Source of the DNA: Acidimicrobiia bacterium | GTDB lineage: Bacteria > Actinomycetota > Acidimicrobiia > IMCC26256 > PALSA-610 | Length of the DNA: 64,000 nt | Reading direction: 5' to 3' | Assembly: GCA_036271555.1 (NCBI GenBank) | Contig: DATBAK010000002.1 | Location: forward strand, 1 to 64,000 | Shown here: positions 54,617 through 64,000 of the stretch, piece after piece | How positions within the stretch are numbered: position 1 is the first letter of the stretch | Layout of the letters: each line of letters starts with the position of its first letter | The notes under the pieces: model-generated | What the model was told of the DNA's origin: nothing | The model's database searches: none | Seen by the model: only the letters and a program-made list of their open reading frames with translations | Made by a program: the position numbers and the translations under genes

Positions 54617-55105
54617 GTGTCGACCGCTCTCTGTCCGGGTTCGTTCGATCCGGTCACCCTGGGCCACATCGACATCATCGAGCGATCGGCGGGGCACTTC
54701 GAGCAAGTGATCGTCGCGGTGATCCGCAACCCGCAGAAGACGCAGTCGCTCTTCACACTCCAAGAGCGTCAGGAGATGCTCGCCGAGTGCACCGCGCACC
54801 TGCCGAACATCAGCATCGCGTTCTTCAAAGGTCTGCTCGTCGACTTCGCGCGCGAGCACGGCGCCGACGCGATCGTGAAGGGCCTGCGCGCGGTCACGGA
54901 CTTCGATTACGAGATCCAGATGGCGCAGATGAACCAGCGCCTGTCGGGGATCGACACCTTCTTCCTCTCCACGAGCCCGAACTATTCGTTCCTCTCTTCC
55001 AGCCTCGTCCGCGAGGTCGCGCGCTATGGCGGTGACGTGACCAGCATGGTCCCGCCCGTCGTCGCCAAGCGCCTTGCGGATCGCTTCCACGGGGAGGCTT
55101 CATGA
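54617..55105 (+). CDS. coaD: Pantetheine-phosphate adenylyltransferase
   Basis: A 162-residue PPAT, the penultimate step of coenzyme A synthesis. Canonical elements: ALCPGSFDPVTLGHIDIIER (nucleotidyltransferase motif with T/H-x-G-H), NPQKTQSLFTLQERQEML, IVKGLRAVTDFDYEIQMAQM NQRLSG and FLSTSPNYSFLSSSLVREVA. GTG start. It overlaps the next gene by 4 bases. Confidence 0.97.
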   Translation: MSTALCPGSFDPVTLGHIDIIERSAGHFEQVIVAVIRNPQKTQSLFTLQERQEMLAECTAHLPNISIAFFKGLLVDFAREHGADAIVKGLRAVTDFDYEIQMAQMNQRLSGIDTFFLSTSPNYSFLSSSLVREVARYGGDVTSMVPPVVAKRLADRFHGEAS

Positions 55106-55781: not shown

Positions 55782-57425
55782 CTATTTGTTGTCGATCTCG
55801 TCGGGCGGGACGATCGTCGACAGGGTGGATCGACAGCTCACGGCGAGCGACTGCATCGCGGCGGCGTTCCGCGCGAATGCAGGGCCGTTCGGCGAGTTCG
55901 CCTCGGCGACCGAGGTGTGGTCGGTGACGCCGTCCGACAGGCACGTCGCCGCCGCGGGCGCCACGCCCTCCTGCACGGCCGCGCCGATCAGGCTCGTGCG
56001 GAACACGAGCAGCTGATACGCGCCGAGGCTGCGGTTCGTCACGGTCTTCGCCGCGCTCCCGGGATCGCACGACCGCAACGAGAGCGTGTTGTCGGAGTTC
56101 GCCGTCACGCGGGCCATGCCGTGCGGCAACGCCGCGATCCACTGGCGCAGCGCGCCGAGCATCTGCGTGTTGTCGCGCTTCGTCTCGCCGCGGTAGTGCA
56201 CCTCGAGACACGTCTGCGAACCCTCACGCGCGATCGCGTACGAGTCGGCGCCCCAACCCAACGCCGCGTGCATCGCGACGTGCGGGTCGATGCGCTCCGA
56301 CAGCATGAGGTACCACATCAGCACCCCGAACTCCTTGCCGCTGTCGAGCTTCTTCGCGCCCTTCGGAAGCTTCGGCGCGGAGATCGCGCCGGGCTCGTCG
56401 TTGTCGAGATAGCTGAGCGGATCGATCACCTGCTCTTCGTCGATCGGCGGGTTCTTGAACGCGGCGTCGACCTTGGCCTGGCCGCCGACCTTGCGCAGCA
56501 GGTCGACGTACACCGGGCCGAAGTCGTAGGCCCACTCCTGGAGCAGCCCGAGCACCTGCGGCACACCCTTCAGGTCCGCGCCGGAGGCCGCAGTGTCCTG
56601 CGAACGCTCGTACGCGCGCCGGTCGCTCGGGGAGAGCTTCGCGATGTAGTCGTTCTCGACCGCTTCCGCGTCGCCCTCGATGAGCGCCTCGGTGGCGTCG
56701 GTGTCGTGCTTGTCGCCGATCTTCTCGACCTTGTCGAGGTCGTAGTGCTGATCGTCGAGCGTGTGCGTCAGCTCGTGCGCGAGCGTCACCTTCTGCGCGA
56801 CGTCGATCGCGCCCTCGGGCACCACGACCTGCTTCTTCTCGAAGTCGTAGAACGCCTCGGTGGTCTCGCCCGTGAGCTGGTTCAGCTTCTTGAAGAGGTC
56901 GACGTTCCCTTGGACCATGCCCATCGCGCGCAGCGCCTCGAGCGTCGCCTGGATCTCGCGCTTGTCCTTCGCGCTGAGCTTCTGGTCGCCGAGCAGCCGC
57001 TTCTTGAACGCGGCGGGGGAGAGGAACAGCACCTGCACCGGGTGGAGGTAGTGGAGGTCGCGCTGCTTCTGGTCGAACTGCACGAGGCTGCTGACGCGCG
57101 GGTCCCAGTTCGTCGGGAACGTCGTGGTCGGGGCGCCGGCCTTGTCCTTCGAGCCGACCATGGTGAGCCCGACGACGGCGGCGGCGACGATCGCGGCGGT
57201 CACCACCAGTGCGATGGCGACCGTCTTCGGCGAGTTGCCGGTGCGGGGTGGGCGCGGTGCCTTGCCCCGCGCGTCGAGCGCGCCCGGACCGAGCGGCGGG
57301 GCCATCCCCGGCGGGGGGGTACCGAGGACGGGTTCGGCCGCCGCGCCCGAGTAGGACGCGCCGCACTTCACGCACATCGGCCGCCAGTCGTCGTTCTCGG
57401 TGCCGCAGGCCGCGCAGCGCTTCAT
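55782..57425 (-). CDS. Zinc-ribbon, membrane-anchored HExxH metallopeptidase-like protein
   Basis: A 547-residue protein of no recognised family name. The N-terminal 21 residues form a zinc ribbon (Cys4, Cys7, Cys18, Cys21). A proline-rich linker leads to one membrane helix (about 67-91). The outer part holds an HExxH at 217-221 (AHELTHTLDDQH) with further acidic residues at Glu250 and Glu254 (EALIEGDAEAVEN) that could be the third zinc ligand, the gluzincin layout. About 290 helical residues follow, with cysteines at the end. With N-in topology the ribbon is cytoplasmic and the peptidase outside. It is inserted, on the opposite strand, into the coaD-to-smc block. Confidence 0.7.
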   Translation of the reverse strand: MKRCAACGTENDDWRPMCVKCGASYSGAAAEPVLGTPPPGMAPPLGPGALDARGKAPRPPRTGNSPKTVAIALVVTAAIVAAAVVGLTMVGSKDKAGAPTTTFPTNWDPRVSSLVQFDQKQRDLHYLHPVQVLFLSPAAFKKRLLGDQKLSAKDKREIQATLEALRAMGMVQGNVDLFKKLNQLTGETTEAFYDFEKKQVVVPEGAIDVAQKVTLAHELTHTLDDQHYDLDKVEKIGDKHDTDATEALIEGDAEAVENDYIAKLSPSDRRAYERSQDTAASGADLKGVPQVLGLLQEWAYDFGPVYVDLLRKVGGQAKVDAAFKNPPIDEEQVIDPLSYLDNDEPGAISAPKLPKGAKKLDSGKEFGVLMWYLMLSERIDPHVAMHAALGWGADSYAIAREGSQTCLEVHYRGETKRDNTQMLGALRQWIAALPHGMARVTANSDNTLSLRSCDPGSAAKTVTNRSLGAYQLLVFRTSLIGAAVQEGVAPAAATCLSDGVTDHTSVAEANSPNGPAFARNAAAMQSLAVSCRSTLSTIVPPDEIDNK

Positions 57426-57663: not shown

Positions 57664-58185
57664 ATGATTAGTCCACTGATGACCGTTTCTTCCGGTTTGC
57701 GAATCATGGTCACCGACCTTCTGCGCCGGCCCGGAGCGAAACGGGCCGTGCATCTCGAGGGCGCGGTGCCGGATCTCGGCGCGGGCACGGTCGTGGTCGG
57801 GCCCGACGACTTGGTGCGCATCGACGCCGTGCTCGAGCGGATCCCGGAGGGGATCGTCGTCCGCGGCGAGGTCGACGTCGCCTGGACGGCCGAGTGCAAC
57901 CGCTGCCTCGGCCCGATGCGGGGCGAGCTCGCGATCGGTATCGACGAGCTGTTCGAGACCGACCCGATCGACGGCGAGACCTATCGCCTCGACGGCGACA
58001 GCATCGACCTCGAGCAGATCGTGCGCGACCACGTCGTGCTCGAGCTGCCGACCGCCCCCCGCTGCCGCGACGACTGTCGCGGCCTGTGCCCCACCTGCGG
58101 CGCCGACCGGAACGACGTCGACTGCGGCTGCGTCGAAGAAGTCGGCGATCCCCGTTGGGCGGCCCTCGGGTCGCTCGAGCTGTGA
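57664..58185 (+). CDS. DUF177 family protein (YceD-like)
   Basis: A 173-residue protein. Family features: LRIMVTDLLRRPGAKRAVHL at the start, WTAECNRCLGPMRGELAIGI, and the four-cysteine end CRDDCRGLCPTCGADRNDVD CGC. Start is ATG 57664, or 57679 or 57706 (MVTDLLRRP, where the domain begins). DUF177 genes sit upstream of rpmF widely; in E. coli YceD is linked to 23S rRNA maturation and plant relatives act in rRNA processing. rpmF starts 45 bases later. Confidence 0.88.
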   Translation: MISPLMTVSSGLRIMVTDLLRRPGAKRAVHLEGAVPDLGAGTVVVGPDDLVRIDAVLERIPEGIVVRGEVDVAWTAECNRCLGPMRGELAIGIDELFETDPIDGETYRLDGDSIDLEQIVRDHVVLELPTAPRCRDDCRGLCPTCGADRNDVDCGCVEEVGDPRWAALGSLEL

Positions 58186-58230: not shown

Positions 58231-58410
58231 TTGGCCGTCCCGAAGCGCAAGACCAGCCGGTCCCGGACGCGGTCCCGGCGTTCGGCGAACTACGCCATCA
58301 CGCCGGCCGCCCACTCGCTCTGTCCGAACTGCGGCGCGTCGCGGCTGCCTCACACCGTCTGCGTGAACTGCGGCTGGTACCGCGGACGGCAGGTCGTGGA
58401 GGTCGAGTAA
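58231..58410 (+). CDS. rpmF: 50S ribosomal protein L32
   Basis: A 59-residue L32, too short for many gene callers. It reads LAVPKRKTSRSRTRSRRSAN YAITPA then the zinc pair LCPNCGASRLPHTVCVNCGW YRGRQVVEVE (C-x2-C, C-x2-C). The start is TTG 58231, with AAGGAG 9 bases upstream. Four bases separate it from plsX. Confidence 0.95.
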   Translation: MAVPKRKTSRSRTRSRRSANYAITPAAHSLCPNCGASRLPHTVCVNCGWYRGRQVVEVE

Positions 58411-58414
58411 CCGA

Positions 58415-59428
58415 GTGAGCGAGGGGCCGCCGGGCACCGATCCGGCCTCGGTCACGGTCGCCGTCGACGCGATGGGCGGCGACCGCGCGCCCGACGCCAT
58501 CGTCGCGGGCGCGCTCCAGGCCGCGGCGACCCTCGACGTCGACATCCTCCTCGTCGGTTCCGAGGCCCGGCTGCGGCCGCTCGTCGGAGACGCCGCGCGC
58601 GTCGCGCTGCTCGACGCGTCCGAGGTCGTCGAGATGCACGAGCCCGCGACCGCGGTACGTACGAAGCGCGACGCGTCGGTCGTCCGTTGCGCGGAAGCGG
58701 TGCGCGACGGCCGCGCGGCCGCGATGGTCGGGGCGGGAAACACCGGCGCGACGATGGCCGCGGCGCTGCTGCGCTTCGGCCGGCTGCCGGGCGTGAGCCG
58801 TCCCGCGATCGCGATCCCGGTGCCGGTCGCCGGCACGCAGACGCGACAGCTTCTCGTCGACGGTGGCGCGACCGTCGACCCCGAGCCCGAATGGCTCGTG
58901 CAGTGGGCGCGTCTCGCGCGTGAGTACGCGCGCGTCCGTCTCGGCGTCGACGAACCGACGGTCGGGCTGCTGTCGAACGGCGAAGAGCCCGGCAAGGGCG
59001 ACGCGCTGCGCAAGGACGCGTTCGCGCGGCTGTCTTCGGTGAAGGGCTTCATCGGCAACGTCGAAGGGCGCGATCTCTCGCGCGTCGCCGCCGACGTGAT
59101 CGTCACCGACGGCTTCACCGGCAACGTCGCGCTGAAGACGCTCGAAGGCGCGATGCTCGGTCTCGCGGGCCTCGTGTTCTCGATCCTCGACGAGCCCGAG
59201 TTCGCCGCCGTGAGCGAGCCGATCAAGCTGCGCCTGCTCGCGGCGGCCGCCGACCTGATGCCCGACGAGACCGGCGGTGCGATGCTGCTCGGCGTCGACG
59301 GCGTGTGCGTGATCTCGCACGGTTCGTCGGGCGAGCGCGCGATCGTCAACGCCGTTTCGGTGGCCGCCGCGTGCGCGCGGGCCGACGTCGTGAGTCGGCT
59401 GCGCGGGGTGATGGCCGATGCCGGCTGA
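58415..59428 (+). CDS. plsX: Phosphate acyltransferase PlsX
   Basis: A 337-residue PlsX, converting acyl-ACP and phosphate to acyl-phosphate for phospholipid synthesis. Motifs: VTVAVDAMGGDRAPDAIVAG, KRDASVVRCAEAVRDGRAAA MVGAGNTGATMAAA, GLLSNGEEPGKGDALRKDA, FIGNVEGRDLSRVAADVIVT DGFTGNVALKTLEGA. GTG 58415 has no Shine-Dalgarno but follows rpmF by 4 bases. It overlaps the next gene by 11 bases, in the place where acpP normally sits in bacteria. Confidence 0.96.
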   Translation: MSEGPPGTDPASVTVAVDAMGGDRAPDAIVAGALQAAATLDVDILLVGSEARLRPLVGDAARVALLDASEVVEMHEPATAVRTKRDASVVRCAEAVRDGRAAAMVGAGNTGATMAAALLRFGRLPGVSRPAIAIPVPVAGTQTRQLLVDGGATVDPEPEWLVQWARLAREYARVRLGVDEPTVGLLSNGEEPGKGDALRKDAFARLSSVKGFIGNVEGRDLSRVAADVIVTDGFTGNVALKTLEGAMLGLAGLVFSILDEPEFAAVSEPIKLRLLAAAADLMPDETGGAMLLGVDGVCVISHGSSGERAIVNAVSVAAACARADVVSRLRGVMADAG

Positions 59429-60458
59429 GACCCACAGCCACCGCAGTCCCGTGGCGCGCGACGAGGTGAGCCGGCTCGTGCGCGAGCGACTCGCCGAGAT
59501 CCTCGAGGTCGACGACGACGCCGTGCGCGCCGATGCGCGCCTGCGCGACGACCTGCACGCCGACGACTTCGCGCTGATCGAGTGGGCCGAGGCGATCGAG
59601 GACGAGCTCGGCGAGCGCACCGTCGGCTTCAAGCTCGCCGACGACGACCTCGCGGAGCTCGACACCGTCGCCGACGCGATCGACTGTGTCGTCGCGCGGC
59701 TCGAGTCCGGTGGAAGCGCGGCGCCCGTCGCGGACACACCCCCGCCCGAGCCCGATCCCACGCTCGACGCGCTCGAGGCGCGCATCACCTATGCCTTCCG
59801 CGACCGCGCGCTGTTGCGGCGCGCACTGTCGCACCGGTCGTGGTGCGCGGAGAACGGCGGGCACGAGTCCAACGAGCGCTTCGAGTTCCTCGGCGACTCG
59901 GTGCTCGGTGTGGTCGTCACCGACGACGTCTTCCGCCGCTTCCCCCACCTTCCCGAAGGCCAGCTCTCGGAGGTGCGCGCGGGGGTCGTGAACGCGCGTG
60001 CGCTCGCCGAGATCGCGGCCGAGATCGGCCTCGGCGCGTGCCTGCTGCTCGGCAAGGGCGAGGACGCGGGTGGCGGTCGTGCGAAGCAGTCGATCCTCGC
60101 CGACGGGTTCGAGGCGTTGATCGCCGCGGTGTATCTCGACGGCGGGCTCGAGGCCGCGACCCGTCTCGTGCTCGATCACGTGGGCCACCGCATCGGTGTG
60201 TCCGCCGACGGTCCCGGTGGACGTGACTACAAGACCCGCCTCCAGGAGCTCGCCGCGGCGCGCAGCTTGGGGCGGCCGCGGTACGTCGTGCGCGACGAGG
60301 GGCCCGACCACGCGAAGAAGTTCTTCGCGGTCGTGCTGCTCGACGGCGAGGAGTCCGGCACGGGGACGGGCAATTCGAAGAAGGAAGCCGAGCAGGAGGC
60401 CGCGTGGTACGCCTGGTCGGGCCTGCAGGAGGGGGGCCAAGGTGCCGGAGCTACCTGA
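59418..60458 (+). CDS. rnc: Fusion of a degenerate acyl-carrier-protein domain to ribonuclease III
   Basis: A 346-residue protein. Residues about 15-96 have the ACP four-helix pattern (VSRLVRERLAEILEVDDDAV, LRDDLHADDFALIEWAEAIE, LDTVADAIDCVVARLE), but the phosphopantetheine Ser in DSL is Asp50 (HADDF). A Ser/Ala/Pro linker (97-115) leads to RNase III. Its signature is NERFEFLGDSVL (152-163) with catalytic Glu153, Glu156, Asp160, and LADGFEALIAAVYLD with Asp229 and Glu232. A dsRNA-binding domain is at about 269-334. RNase III processes rRNA and cuts double-stranded RNA. No ATG, GTG or TTG lies in frame between the ACP part and the first RNase III helix. It overlaps the Fpg-like gene by 17 bases. 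Confidence 0.93.
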   Translation: MPAETHSHRSPVARDEVSRLVRERLAEILEVDDDAVRADARLRDDLHADDFALIEWAEAIEDELGERTVGFKLADDDLAELDTVADAIDCVVARLESGGSAAPVADTPPPEPDPTLDALEARITYAFRDRALLRRALSHRSWCAENGGHESNERFEFLGDSVLGVVVTDDVFRRFPHLPEGQLSEVRAGVVNARALAEIAAEIGLGACLLLGKGEDAGGGRAKQSILADGFEALIAAVYLDGGLEAATRLVLDHVGHRIGVSADGPGGRDYKTRLQELAAARSLGRPRYVVRDEGPDHAKKFFAVVLLDGEESGTGTGNSKKEAEQEAAWYAWSGLQEGGQGAGAT

Positions 60459-61284
60459 GATCGAGGTCTTGCGTCGAGATCTCGAGCGCGACCTCGTCGG
60501 TCGCAAGATCAAGAGCGTCGAGGTCGACGGGCTGAAGCCGATTCGCCGTCACCGCACGAAGAAGGCGTTCACCGGCCTGCTCGACGGCCACAAGATCACG
60601 GGCGTCGAGCGGCGCGGCCGTTACCTGCTCATCCGCCTCGACGGTCCCGACGTGCTGCTCGTCGATCTCGGCCCGACGGGCTCGCTCGTACGCGCGAAGA
60701 CCGCGCGCACCGCGGTGACGAAGGGCACGCACGTCGTCATCACGTTCACCCAGGGCGGGCAGTTGCGCTACTCCGACCCGAAGGTGACGGGCGAGATGTT
60801 CGTCACGCCCCTCGAGGGCATCGCCGACGAGGTGAGCGAGATCGCCGCGAAGGGTCTCGACCCGCTCGAAGCGTCGATCTCGTGGATCGACTTCGGGCGC
60901 CTCATCGCGGGCCGGCACGCGAAGTTGAAGGCGCTGCTGATGGACGCGAGCGTCCTCACCGGGATCGGTCCCGTGTACAGCGACGAGATCCTGTTCGCGG
61001 CGGGACTGCGGTGGGATCGCGAGAGCGACTCGCTCACCGACCAGGAGATTCGTCGTCTCTATCGCGCGATCGTCGAGACCGTGCAGGAGGCCGTGAAGTA
61101 CGCGGGCTCACGCGCCGCCAACAACAGCGACGGCGACGGTGTCGACCACACGGGTAGCGGCGAGAACCACCGCTTCAAGGTCTACGAGCGCGAAGGCGAG
61201 GCGTGCCGGCGGTGCCGGCGCCCGCTCGTGAAGCTGCGCGTCGGCAATCGCCCGGTCTTCTTCTGCGAAGCGTGCCAGGTGTAG
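60442..61284 (+). CDS. mutM: Fpg/Nei family DNA glycosylase, divergent
   Basis: A 280-residue protein. It starts VPELPEIEVLRRDLERDLVG (the catalytic Pro-Glu after Met removal), contains the helix-two-turn-helix region LTGIGPVYSDEILFAAGLRW, and ends with the zinc finger CRRCRRPLVKLRVGNRPVFF CEACQ, which keeps the Arg equivalent to E. coli Arg258. Differences from canonical MutM: R60 for Lys57 (RRGRYLL), LGPTGSL for LGMSGSL, DPKVTG for DPRRFG, and GIGP for GVGN. An insert GDGVDHTGSGENHRF lies before the zinc finger. AGGAGG precedes GTG 60442. Locus position between rnc and smc is the usual mutM one. Confidence 0.8.
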   Translation: MPELPEIEVLRRDLERDLVGRKIKSVEVDGLKPIRRHRTKKAFTGLLDGHKITGVERRGRYLLIRLDGPDVLLVDLGPTGSLVRAKTARTAVTKGTHVVITFTQGGQLRYSDPKVTGEMFVTPLEGIADEVSEIAAKGLDPLEASISWIDFGRLIAGRHAKLKALLMDASVLTGIGPVYSDEILFAAGLRWDRESDSLTDQEIRRLYRAIVETVQEAVKYAGSRAANNSDGDGVDHTGSGENHRFKVYEREGEACRRCRRPLVKLRVGNRPVFFCEACQV

Positions 61285-61358: not shown

Positions 61359-64000
61359 ATGTTCCTGAGGTCCTTGACCCTCAAAGGGTTCAAGTCGTTC
61401 GCCGAGAAGACGACGCTCGAGTTCGAGCCCGGTGTCATGGTCGTCGTCGGGCCGAACGGCTCGGGCAAGTCGAACCTCGTCGACGCGGTCGCGTGGGTGC
61501 TCGGCGCGCAGGGTGCGCGGGCGCTGCGCGGCGGGAAGATGGACGACGTCATCTTCGCGGGCACCGCCGATCGGCCCGCGCTCGGGCGCGCCGAGGTGTC
61601 GCTCACGATCGACAACGCGTCGCAGATGCTGCCGATCGAGTTCACCGAGGTGACGATCACCCGCACGCTCTTCCGCACGGGCGAGTCGGAGTACGCGATC
61701 AATGGCGCGTCGTGCCGACTGCTCGACATCCAAGAGCTCCTCTCGGACTCGGGCATCGGTCGCCAGCAGCACGTGATCGTCGGGCAGGGTCAGCTCGACG
61801 CGGTGCTGAACGCGCGCGCCGAGGACCGGCGGGCGATCATCGAAGAGGCTGCGGGCGTCCTCAAATACCGCAAGCGCAAGGAGAAGGCGGAGCGCCGGCT
61901 CGAGGCGACCGAGGCGAACCTGCTCCGGCTCACCGACCTGTTGCGTGAGGTGCGGCGCCAGCTGCGTCCACTCGAGCGGCAGGCCGACGCCGCCCGTCGT
62001 CACGACGGACTGCAGACAACGCTTCGCGAGATCCGGCTGCACCTCTCCGGCCGCGACATCGAGATGCTCACGACGCGGCTCGAACGACGCGGCCTGCGGC
62101 GGGGCGAGCTCGGAACATCCGAGGCCGAGGTGCGCGCGCGTCTGCGCGTGCTCGACGCCGATGTCGCGCGGGCCGAGCGCGAGCTCAGCCGCCCCGGCGA
62201 CGACGACGTCGCCGACTTGTTGATGCGCGTCGAAGCCGCTCGCGAACGCGGTCGCGGTCTGCAGGCACTCATTGCCGAGCGCGCGCGCGGCATCGAACGG
62301 GAGCTGCTCGCCGCCGCCGACGAAGGGGTCGTGGAGACGCTCGTCGCCGACGCCGCGTCGCTGCGCGACGAGCTCGCCTCGGTCGAGCTCGAACGCGAAG
62401 GACTGCGCCCGCTGCTCGACTCCGCGCGCATCGCCGCGGCGCGCGCCGAAGAGTGCCGCGCCGCGATCGACGACGCGTCAGGACCCGCGCCCGACGCGCG
62501 CGGCGCCGCGGAACAAGAGCTCGCGGAGGCGACGCAGCGCTGGAACGACGCGGTCGCGTCGCACGACGGCATCCGCGCGCGTATCGACGCGTTGAGCGCC
62601 GACGTGCCGTCGGTTCGCGAGCAGCTGGTCGCGGCCGCTGCCGCGCTCGCCGCGCTGGAGCCCGAGCGGACCCGTACGCACACCGCGCGCGCCGCCGCGG
62701 CCGAGGCGTTCCGCGCGATCGAGGCAACCGTCGAACCCGAGCACGCGGCCGAGGGCGACGAGCGTCGCGCCGCCGAGGAGGCACACGAGGCCGCGGTCGC
62801 GACGCTGCGGCACGACGAAGCCGAGGCCGCGCGCTGGCGCGCCCGTGCCGACGTGCTCGCGGCGGCCCTCGAAGAGGAGCACGCGACCGCGGGCGGCGAG
62901 GCCGTGCGCGACCTGCCGGGCGTGCTCGGACCGCTGCTCGACCACCTCGACATCTCGCCCGGCGCAGAGGCCGCGGTCGAGGCCGCGCTCGGTCCGCACC
63001 TGCGCGCGCTCGTCGTCGACGGCGGCGGCGCGGCGCGCGCCGCGGTGGAGCGGTTGCGCGACGGCGATGTCTCTGCGCTGCTGCTCGTCGCCGACCGGTT
63101 CGCGCGTCCGGCGGCGTCGGCGCTCACCCATCCCGCCGACAGCCGCCCGTTGTTGGAGATGGTGCGCACGCGGCGCCCCGATCTCGACGCGCTCGTGCGC
63201 GCGCTACTCGCACGCGTCGTGCTCGTGGAAGGCGACTGGCACGCCGCGCTCGATGTCGCGCTCGGCGATCCCGAGCTCGTGGTCGTCACGCGCGACGGTG
63301 ATCGCTTCGGTGGACCGACACCGTGGCGCGCCGGTCCCGCTGGTCGTTCCGCGGTCACACCGTCGACGCTCGCCGACGCGCAGGCGCGCGCCGACGATGC
63401 CGAAGGCGGTGCAGTCACGAGTCGCAACGCGCTTGCATCGGCGCGCCGGCGCCTCGATGCCGCACGCGACGCCGAGGCCAACGCGCGCCGCACGCGCCAG
63501 GTCGCGTACGACGCGGCGCGTCGCGAGCTCGCGGCGGCCGAGAGTGCGCTGCGCGACGTCGAGACCTCGTCGGCGGGCGCAACCGAACGGCGCGCGTCGC
63601 TCGACGCTCGCCTCGCGGAGCTCGAACCCCGACTCGCCGACCTGCCGGCGCGCGCGACCGAGGCCGAGCGCGCGGTCGAGGACACCGCCGCGCAGCGCAC
63701 GCGTGCGCGCCAGGCACTCGAGGTCGCGCTGACGGCCGAGCGCGAAGCGTCGGCGGCCCGGCGCGCCGCGCAGACCCGCTACGAGGAGGCGCGCGTCGAA
63801 GCCGACCGGCTGCGCCGCGAGACCGAGGTCCGTGCGGCCGGGGTCGACGAACGTCGTGGCCTGCTCGCTCGTCGCCTGTCCGACGTCGAGCGCCGGCTCG
63901 CCGCCCGTCCGGACGAGGAAGCCGCCGCGCAGCGCCGCCGCGCCGAGCTCGAGGAGCGCGCCGCGGCAGTACAGGCACTCGGCGAACGGCTGCGGGAACG
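61359..64000 (+). CDS. smc: Chromosome partition protein SMC, C-terminus beyond the window
   Basis: At least 880 residues of SMC, which loops and organises DNA together with ScpA/ScpB. ATG 61359 gives MFLRSLTLKGFKSFAEKTTL. The Walker A is GPNGSGKSNL (31-40), the Q-loop and R-loop regions are GGKMDDVIFAGTADRPALGR AEVSL and IGRQQHVIVGQGQLDAVLNA. Two coiled-coil stretches (about 150-510 and from 680 on) flank a hinge near 520-660 (GVLGPLLDHLDISPGAEAAV). The frame is open to base 64000. A GGAGGAGG lies 22 bases upstream, rather far, and a TACGCT could be a -10 before it. Confidence 0.95.
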   Translation, partial: MFLRSLTLKGFKSFAEKTTLEFEPGVMVVVGPNGSGKSNLVDAVAWVLGAQGARALRGGKMDDVIFAGTADRPALGRAEVSLTIDNASQMLPIEFTEVTITRTLFRTGESEYAINGASCRLLDIQELLSDSGIGRQQHVIVGQGQLDAVLNARAEDRRAIIEEAAGVLKYRKRKEKAERRLEATEANLLRLTDLLREVRRQLRPLERQADAARRHDGLQTTLREIRLHLSGRDIEMLTTRLERRGLRRGELGTSEAEVRARLRVLDADVARAERELSRPGDDDVADLLMRVEAARERGRGLQALIAERARGIERELLAAADEGVVETLVADAASLRDELASVELEREGLRPLLDSARIAAARAEECRAAIDDASGPAPDARGAAEQELAEATQRWNDAVASHDGIRARIDALSADVPSVREQLVAAAAALAALEPERTRTHTARAAAAEAFRAIEATVEPEHAAEGDERRAAEEAHEAAVATLRHDEAEAARWRARADVLAAALEEEHATAGGEAVRDLPGVLGPLLDHLDISPGAEAAVEAALGPHLRALVVDGGGAARAAVERLRDGDVSALLLVADRFARPAASALTHPADSRPLLEMVRTRRPDLDALVRALLARVVLVEGDWHAALDVALGDPELVVVTRDGDRFGGPTPWRAGPAGRSAVTPSTLADAQARADDAEGGAVTSRNALASARRRLDAARDAEANARRTRQVAYDAARRELAAAESALRDVETSSAGATERRASLDARLAELEPRLADLPARATEAERAVEDTAAQRTRARQALEVALTAEREASAARRAAQTRYEEARVEADRLRRETEVRAAGVDERRGLLARRLSDVERRLAARPDEEAAAQRRRAELEERAAAVQALGERLRE

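Follow-up and report, generated by a model that had tools for sequence, protein, structure and literature searches.

Why is the RNase III of a bacterium joined to a domain resembling an acyl carrier protein (ACP), and can such a domain still act as a carrier? The question is raised by a gene in the window, the 64,000-nucleotide stretch of Acidimicrobiia DNA that was analysed. The locus was compared with a survey sample of 90 rnc loci (L007-L096) from the window's genome (G000) and its relatives.

The fusion gene and its neighbourhood

The gene is a single frame with an ATG start that encodes 346 amino acids plus a stop. The genes and domains discussed below are as follows.

57664-58185, forward strand: yceD/DUF177 (PF02620, 93.9 bits)
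58231-58410, forward strand: rpmF (ribosomal protein L32), a 59-residue open reading frame beginning MAVPKRKTSRSRTRSRRS (sequence reading)
58415-59428, forward strand: plsX (PF02504, 280.4 bits), whose last 11 bases lie within the fusion gene
59418-60458, forward strand: ACP-RNase III fusion gene (frame, Pfam, TIGR02191)
59418-59441, forward strand: N-terminal tail MPAETHSH, with the MPAETH that is near-invariant in this ACP group
59457-59711, forward strand: ACP-fold domain, residues 14-98, with helices 14-29, 50-65, 75-79 and 84-98 (PF00550, AlphaFold, Foldseek)
59565-59567, forward strand: codon of Asp50, which opens helix II and takes the place of the phosphopantetheine-bearing Ser (alignment, AlphaFold)
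59712-59756, forward strand: flexible linker of about 15 residues (99-113) with no start codon (codon scan, pLDDT)
59757-60221, forward strand: RNase III catalytic domain, residues 114-268 (PF14622/PF00636, TIGR02191, motifs)
60228-60404, forward strand: double-stranded RNA-binding domain (dsRBD), residues 271-329 (PF00035)
60442-61284, forward strand: mutM, beginning VPELPEIEVLRRDLERDLVG, whose first 17 bases lie within the end of the fusion gene (sequence reading)
61359-63998, forward strand: start of smc, which runs off the window (sequence reading)

The gene order is therefore yceD, rpmF, plsX, fusion gene, mutM and smc, and the clustering of DUF177, rpmF, plsX, fab genes and rnc has already been documented (PMC5049393). 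The stretch upstream of yceD features a reverse-strand gene at 55782-57425 for a 547-residue, possibly metallopeptidase-like protein with a HELTH (HExxH) motif. It is preceded, a few genes upstream of the fusion gene, by a coaD-like gene (54617-55105, forward strand) that reads MSTALCPGSFDPVTLGHIDII; CoaD supplies CoA, the source of the phosphopantetheine for which the fused ACP has lost its attachment site.

The sequence-only reading had described one frame made of an ACP-like domain, a linker and a complete RNase III with its dsRBD, and the open reading frame, Pfam and AlphaFold all confirm this architecture. The PP-binding profile PF00550 matches residues 20-90 with 27.7 bits in the whole protein and 30.9 bits for the domain alone, above the curated cut-off of 20.8 bits. 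PF14622 matches residues 129-254 with 121.6 bits, PF00636 matches as well, PF00035 matches residues 271-329, and the NCBIfam RNase III model TIGR02191 scores 224.5 bits over residues 119-333 (cut-off 166.25). The protein carries NERFEFLGD from residue 152 and DGFEA from residue 229, and with this signature motif, the acidic catalytic residues and a C-terminal dsRBD it is, judged from its sequence, a bacterial class 1 RNase III. It shares the catalytic domain with NER-EFLGD and D-x-x-E motifs and the dsRBD with the enzymes of E. coli, Aquifex and M. tuberculosis, but differs from them in the 113-residue N-terminal stretch of ACP domain and linker. The fusion gene is the sole RNase III match in the genome. 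The full-length AlphaFold model has a mean pLDDT of 91 with a disordered linker, in which residues 100-106 fall under 50, and its pTM of 0.63 means that the mutual placement of the ACP and RNase III halves is poorly determined.

A codon scan found in-frame ATG, GTG or TTG codons at positions 1, 12, 17, 21 and 36, after which the next is TTG133, located within a predicted helix (130-137) and past the first RNase III helix (114-122) of the AlphaFold model. An internal start would thus cut into the RNase III, and production of RNase III alone from such a start was ruled out for the window's genome. The earlier argument that the enzyme cannot be started whole internally therefore stands, although TTG133 lies after the first helix and not inside it. 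Third-position GC is 0.94 in the ACP part, 0.82 in the linker and 0.90 in the RNase III part, as in one continuous coding frame.

The ACP-like domain and its relatives

The N-terminal domain is predicted to adopt the four-helix ACP fold. Foldseek matches to the model of this part are ACPs, the best being 6lvu (TM 0.90 on target), with 1x3o also matched. The domain scores below the NCBIfam acyl carrier cut-offs. Alignment with relatives, which read ADSL where the fusion protein reads HADDF, bears out the earlier proposal that Asp50 replaces the modified Ser. The domain thus has the fold and Pfam score of an ACP, as well as the plsX-acpP-rnc position, but it differs from bacterial AcpP in lacking the DSL Ser that takes 4'-phosphopantetheine, in its MPAETH tail, in a longer GERTVG loop and in being joined to RNase III. 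E. coli ACP with the S36T change is not modifiable and is non-functional (PMC3340395). By known chemistry a domain with Asp50 instead of Ser cannot carry phosphopantetheine, and on these residues the N-terminal domain is to be read as an ACP homologue that is no carrier. The separate canonical acpP that the sequence-only reading had proposed to look for was found on another contig (C26) of the window's genome; it encodes 80 amino acids with a DSL motif and is located in a fab cluster, between fabG-like and fabF-like genes. A canonical DSL acpP was found in 24 of the 26 genomes checked, and not in the other two (G006 and G013).

An ACP-like gene adjoins rnc or is fused to it in 70 of the 90 loci. 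About 20 are without such a gene, and in these plsX, where in view, is close to rnc (L020 is cut short). Most of the other Acidimicrobiia examined encode the ACP on its own, in a gene that stands between plsX and rnc and usually retains the Ser, and in most members plsX is directly upstream with the 11-base overlap. These free-standing proteins (L097 and L152 are Asp-type, most others Ser-type) are orthologues of the fused domain and share its position, MPAETH tail and GER loop; they differ in being separate genes and, mostly, in keeping the Ser. In the window's family, f1 (14 genomes, 8 genera), the residue is Asp in all 14 copies, 12 of which are free-standing. Only the window's genome and G002, from a second genus, are fused; the G002 protein has 345 residues and is 64% identical to that of the window. 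At 475006-475949 of contig C12 in G002, plsX seemingly lies in two frames beside the fusion gene, through a frameshift or a sequencing error. In the distant family f21 the whole motif is deleted and PF00550 no longer detects the domain, which is free in G060 and fused in G065, G070 and G074.

Other losses of the Ser are scattered through the sample. It is replaced by Glu in G016 and G020, by Asp in G031, G017 and G029 (and in G067, in a weak alignment), by Ala in G039 and by Lys in G033. A free-standing ACP at 3001-3312 of L109 has Pro there (DDLGADPMALF), so that this copy too lacks the attachment residue. In another locus (L156 1964-2260 / L064, genome G054) the Ser is kept while the preceding Asp has become Arg (DVRSTLLF), a possible decay step. 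The replacement is acidic in about five or six of the nine substitution lineages, in a protein that is already acidic, and the idea that the acidic residue mimics a phosphate is suggestive only.

Intact fused frames were found in five genomes of two families, and the partner was the immediate downstream gene in every case. Among 84,980 named species genomes scanned, 80 loci were recovered, the majority titled Acidimicrobiia or Actinomycetota; not one was fused, and no further intact full-length fusion was present among the matches listed in a larger class sample. Fusion as a general feature of Acidimicrobiia was ruled out on these counts. Outside the class, two ACP genes beside rnc were read in a phylum sample, and both are free, with the Ser kept and without MPAETH. 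One candidate from outside the class, in G543, turned out not to be fused, its canonical ACP being encoded separately in a different frame.

Across the plsX-rnc ACPs of Acidimicrobiia the MPAETH tail is near-invariant, and copies that are Ser-less, motif-deleted or fused have it as well; neither the canonical acpP nor the two ACPs examined from outside the class carry it. The tail is not a by-product of the 11-base plsX overlap, since it is kept where there is no overlap and its TH codons differ in the third base, which indicates conservation at the amino-acid level.

Order of events and evolutionary constraint

In an RNase III tree built by a quick method, f1 forms one clade (14 rows, support 95) nested among Ser-bearing lineages and f21 forms a separate clade (4 rows, support 99); each includes unfused members. 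All 14 f1 copies have Asp and only two are fused, so loss of the Ser most likely preceded fusion. This order supports the earlier suggestion that the acpP of a plsX-acpP-rnc arrangement was fused to rnc after losing its carrier function. Fusion requires four changes on the tree and most likely arose at least twice. A sister relationship of G000 and G002, under which f1 may have had a single fusion, was not rejected by the AU test (p 0.34).

The ratio of ACP to RNase III distances is 1.54 in f1 and 2.14 in f21, compared with 0.58-0.90 in families that keep the Ser. At 1.5-2 times the rate of RNase III, the degenerate domain evolves under selection that is relaxed but still purifying. Close pairs within genus g2 (f1), whose Asp-type domains are free, give a dN/dS of 0.015-0.072; in fused pairs it is higher, 0.25-0.44, at dS values that are high and possibly saturated. 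Positions conserved in at least 93% of f1 copies are Asp50, MPAETHSH, R43, D45-L46, G65-E66-R67, D75, L78 and V84, and those that are invariant are PAETHS, D32, L42, R43, D45, L46, D50, E63, G65-E66-R67, D75, L78, V84 and L95. The MPAETH tail is itself invariant in the family except for one copy that starts with TTG. The helix-II face of ordinary ACPs contacts partner enzymes. In f1 this face (positions 53-61) is among the most relaxed parts of the domain, with E58 at 57% and E61 at 71% versus 100% for both in Ser-bearing homologues.

Possible roles of the retained domain

The preferred reading, to which we give about an even chance, is that a carrier-dead accessory ACP has been retained as an adaptor whose probable client is RNase III. 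The domain is the accessory ACP whose gene stands between plsX and rnc in this class. With the change of Ser to Asp in f1 it can no longer take phosphopantetheine, and fatty-acid synthesis must rely on the canonical ACP of the fab cluster. Purifying selection would have kept the ACP-fold protein for another role. Most likely it serves as a small acidic adaptor that binds proteins and cooperates with RNase III, which is encoded next to it. In the window's genome, one other f1 genome and a separate family, fusion made the attachment covalent, which would give each RNase III dimer two adaptor domains on flexible linkers. We infer protein binding as the retained role, and RNase III as the client, because the f1 Asp-type copies are conserved while mostly free-standing, because two separate clades became fused to the same neighbour, because the domain persists in two genomes without detectable plsX, and because most genomes checked have a canonical acpP elsewhere. 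The two genomes without plsX are the fused G065 and G074 of genus g40, in which no PF02504 match was found anywhere; G065 is 98% complete, and its fusion gene (L067 208-1305, reverse strand) directly follows the yceD-rpmF region. The ACP domain thus outlived PlsX, and its retention in these two genomes does not depend on PlsX. Against an adaptor are the faster evolution of the Asp-type domain relative to its own RNase III, the higher dN/dS of fused pairs, the dispensability implied by the loci that have no such gene, and the fact that operon adjacency alone could favour fusion.

Several of these observations would also suit a tolerated passenger, that is, an accessory ACP on its way out after carrier loss, joined to rnc by loss of a stop codon and persisting only because it stands in front of an important enzyme that has no start of its own, where it must stay folded and soluble. 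This is the main rival explanation, to which we give clearly less than an even chance. It accounts for the acceleration after Ser loss, which is much stronger in the motif-deleted f21, for the failure of PF00550 to detect the f21 domain, for the absence of the gene from many relatives and for a fusion partner that is always the next gene downstream. However, it does not explain why 12 genomes conserve free Asp-type genes, which are not shielded in this way, or why dN/dS between close pairs of these is low, and a passenger needs neither Asp50 nor MPAETH, both of which are invariant in f1 (bar the TTG-started copy). A regulator of PlsX is unlikely. A carrier-dead ACP could mimic acyl-ACP or apo-ACP, bind PlsX and tether RNase III to phospholipid synthesis, and the overlapping upstream plsX of most members would fit, as would acidic replacements if they mimic the phosphate of phosphopantetheine, but the two fused genomes with no plsX match and the relaxed helix-II recognition face argue against it. 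Least probable by far is an artefact, be it a sequencing or assembly error that joined two frames or internal initiation that yields RNase III separately. All the genomes are drafts, and the broken plsX frame of G002 suggests that indel errors may occur beside its fusion gene; this explanation is nevertheless largely refuted by intact fused frames in five genomes of two families, which led us to reject a false join, by the linkers of G000 and G002, neither of which has a start codon, and by continuous codon-phase composition.

The sequence-only reading had also proposed docking to SMC or SpoT-like partners and a link to lipid state. Some docking or adaptor role is still the best interpretation, but the partners named are not supported, since mutM intervenes before smc, the helix-II face is relaxed and nothing ties the domain to SMC. 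The lipid link is weakened by the loss of acyl carriage expected from known chemistry and by the two fused genomes without detectable plsX. A broader and more doubtful extension of the adaptor reading is that throughout the class the ACP encoded between plsX and rnc also acts, independently of phosphopantetheine, as a partner of RNase III in rRNA processing, with the MPAETH tail and GER loop as the marks of this second function. A second acpP would have freed some copies from carrying, so that only this function was kept, often with an acidic residue in place of the Ser and with repeated fusion to RNase III.

A precedent is found in the mitochondrial ACP of Plasmodium falciparum, which lost its Ser (to Phe), is essential and binds Isd11-Nfs1 (PMC8547962). 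The fused domain is likewise kept under selection despite replacement of the Ser, by Asp in this case. The Plasmodium protein belongs to another lineage, has another partner and is not fused, and its phosphopantetheine-independent protein binding has been demonstrated, whereas in Acidimicrobiia such binding is the preferred reading. A search of an open-access collection of papers yielded none on a fusion of ACP with RNase III. The parts of the fusion are known, but their combination, which joins a carrier fold of lipid synthesis to RNA processing, appears to be undescribed. The Acidimicrobiia provide a natural bacterial series in which an ACP loses its carrier serine and is yet retained. Related genomes hold versions with the Ser, without it and joined to RNase III, and these offer a test for a carrier-independent ACP partner, set in the widely conserved yceD-rpmF-plsX-acpP-rnc cluster of ribosome and lipid genes.
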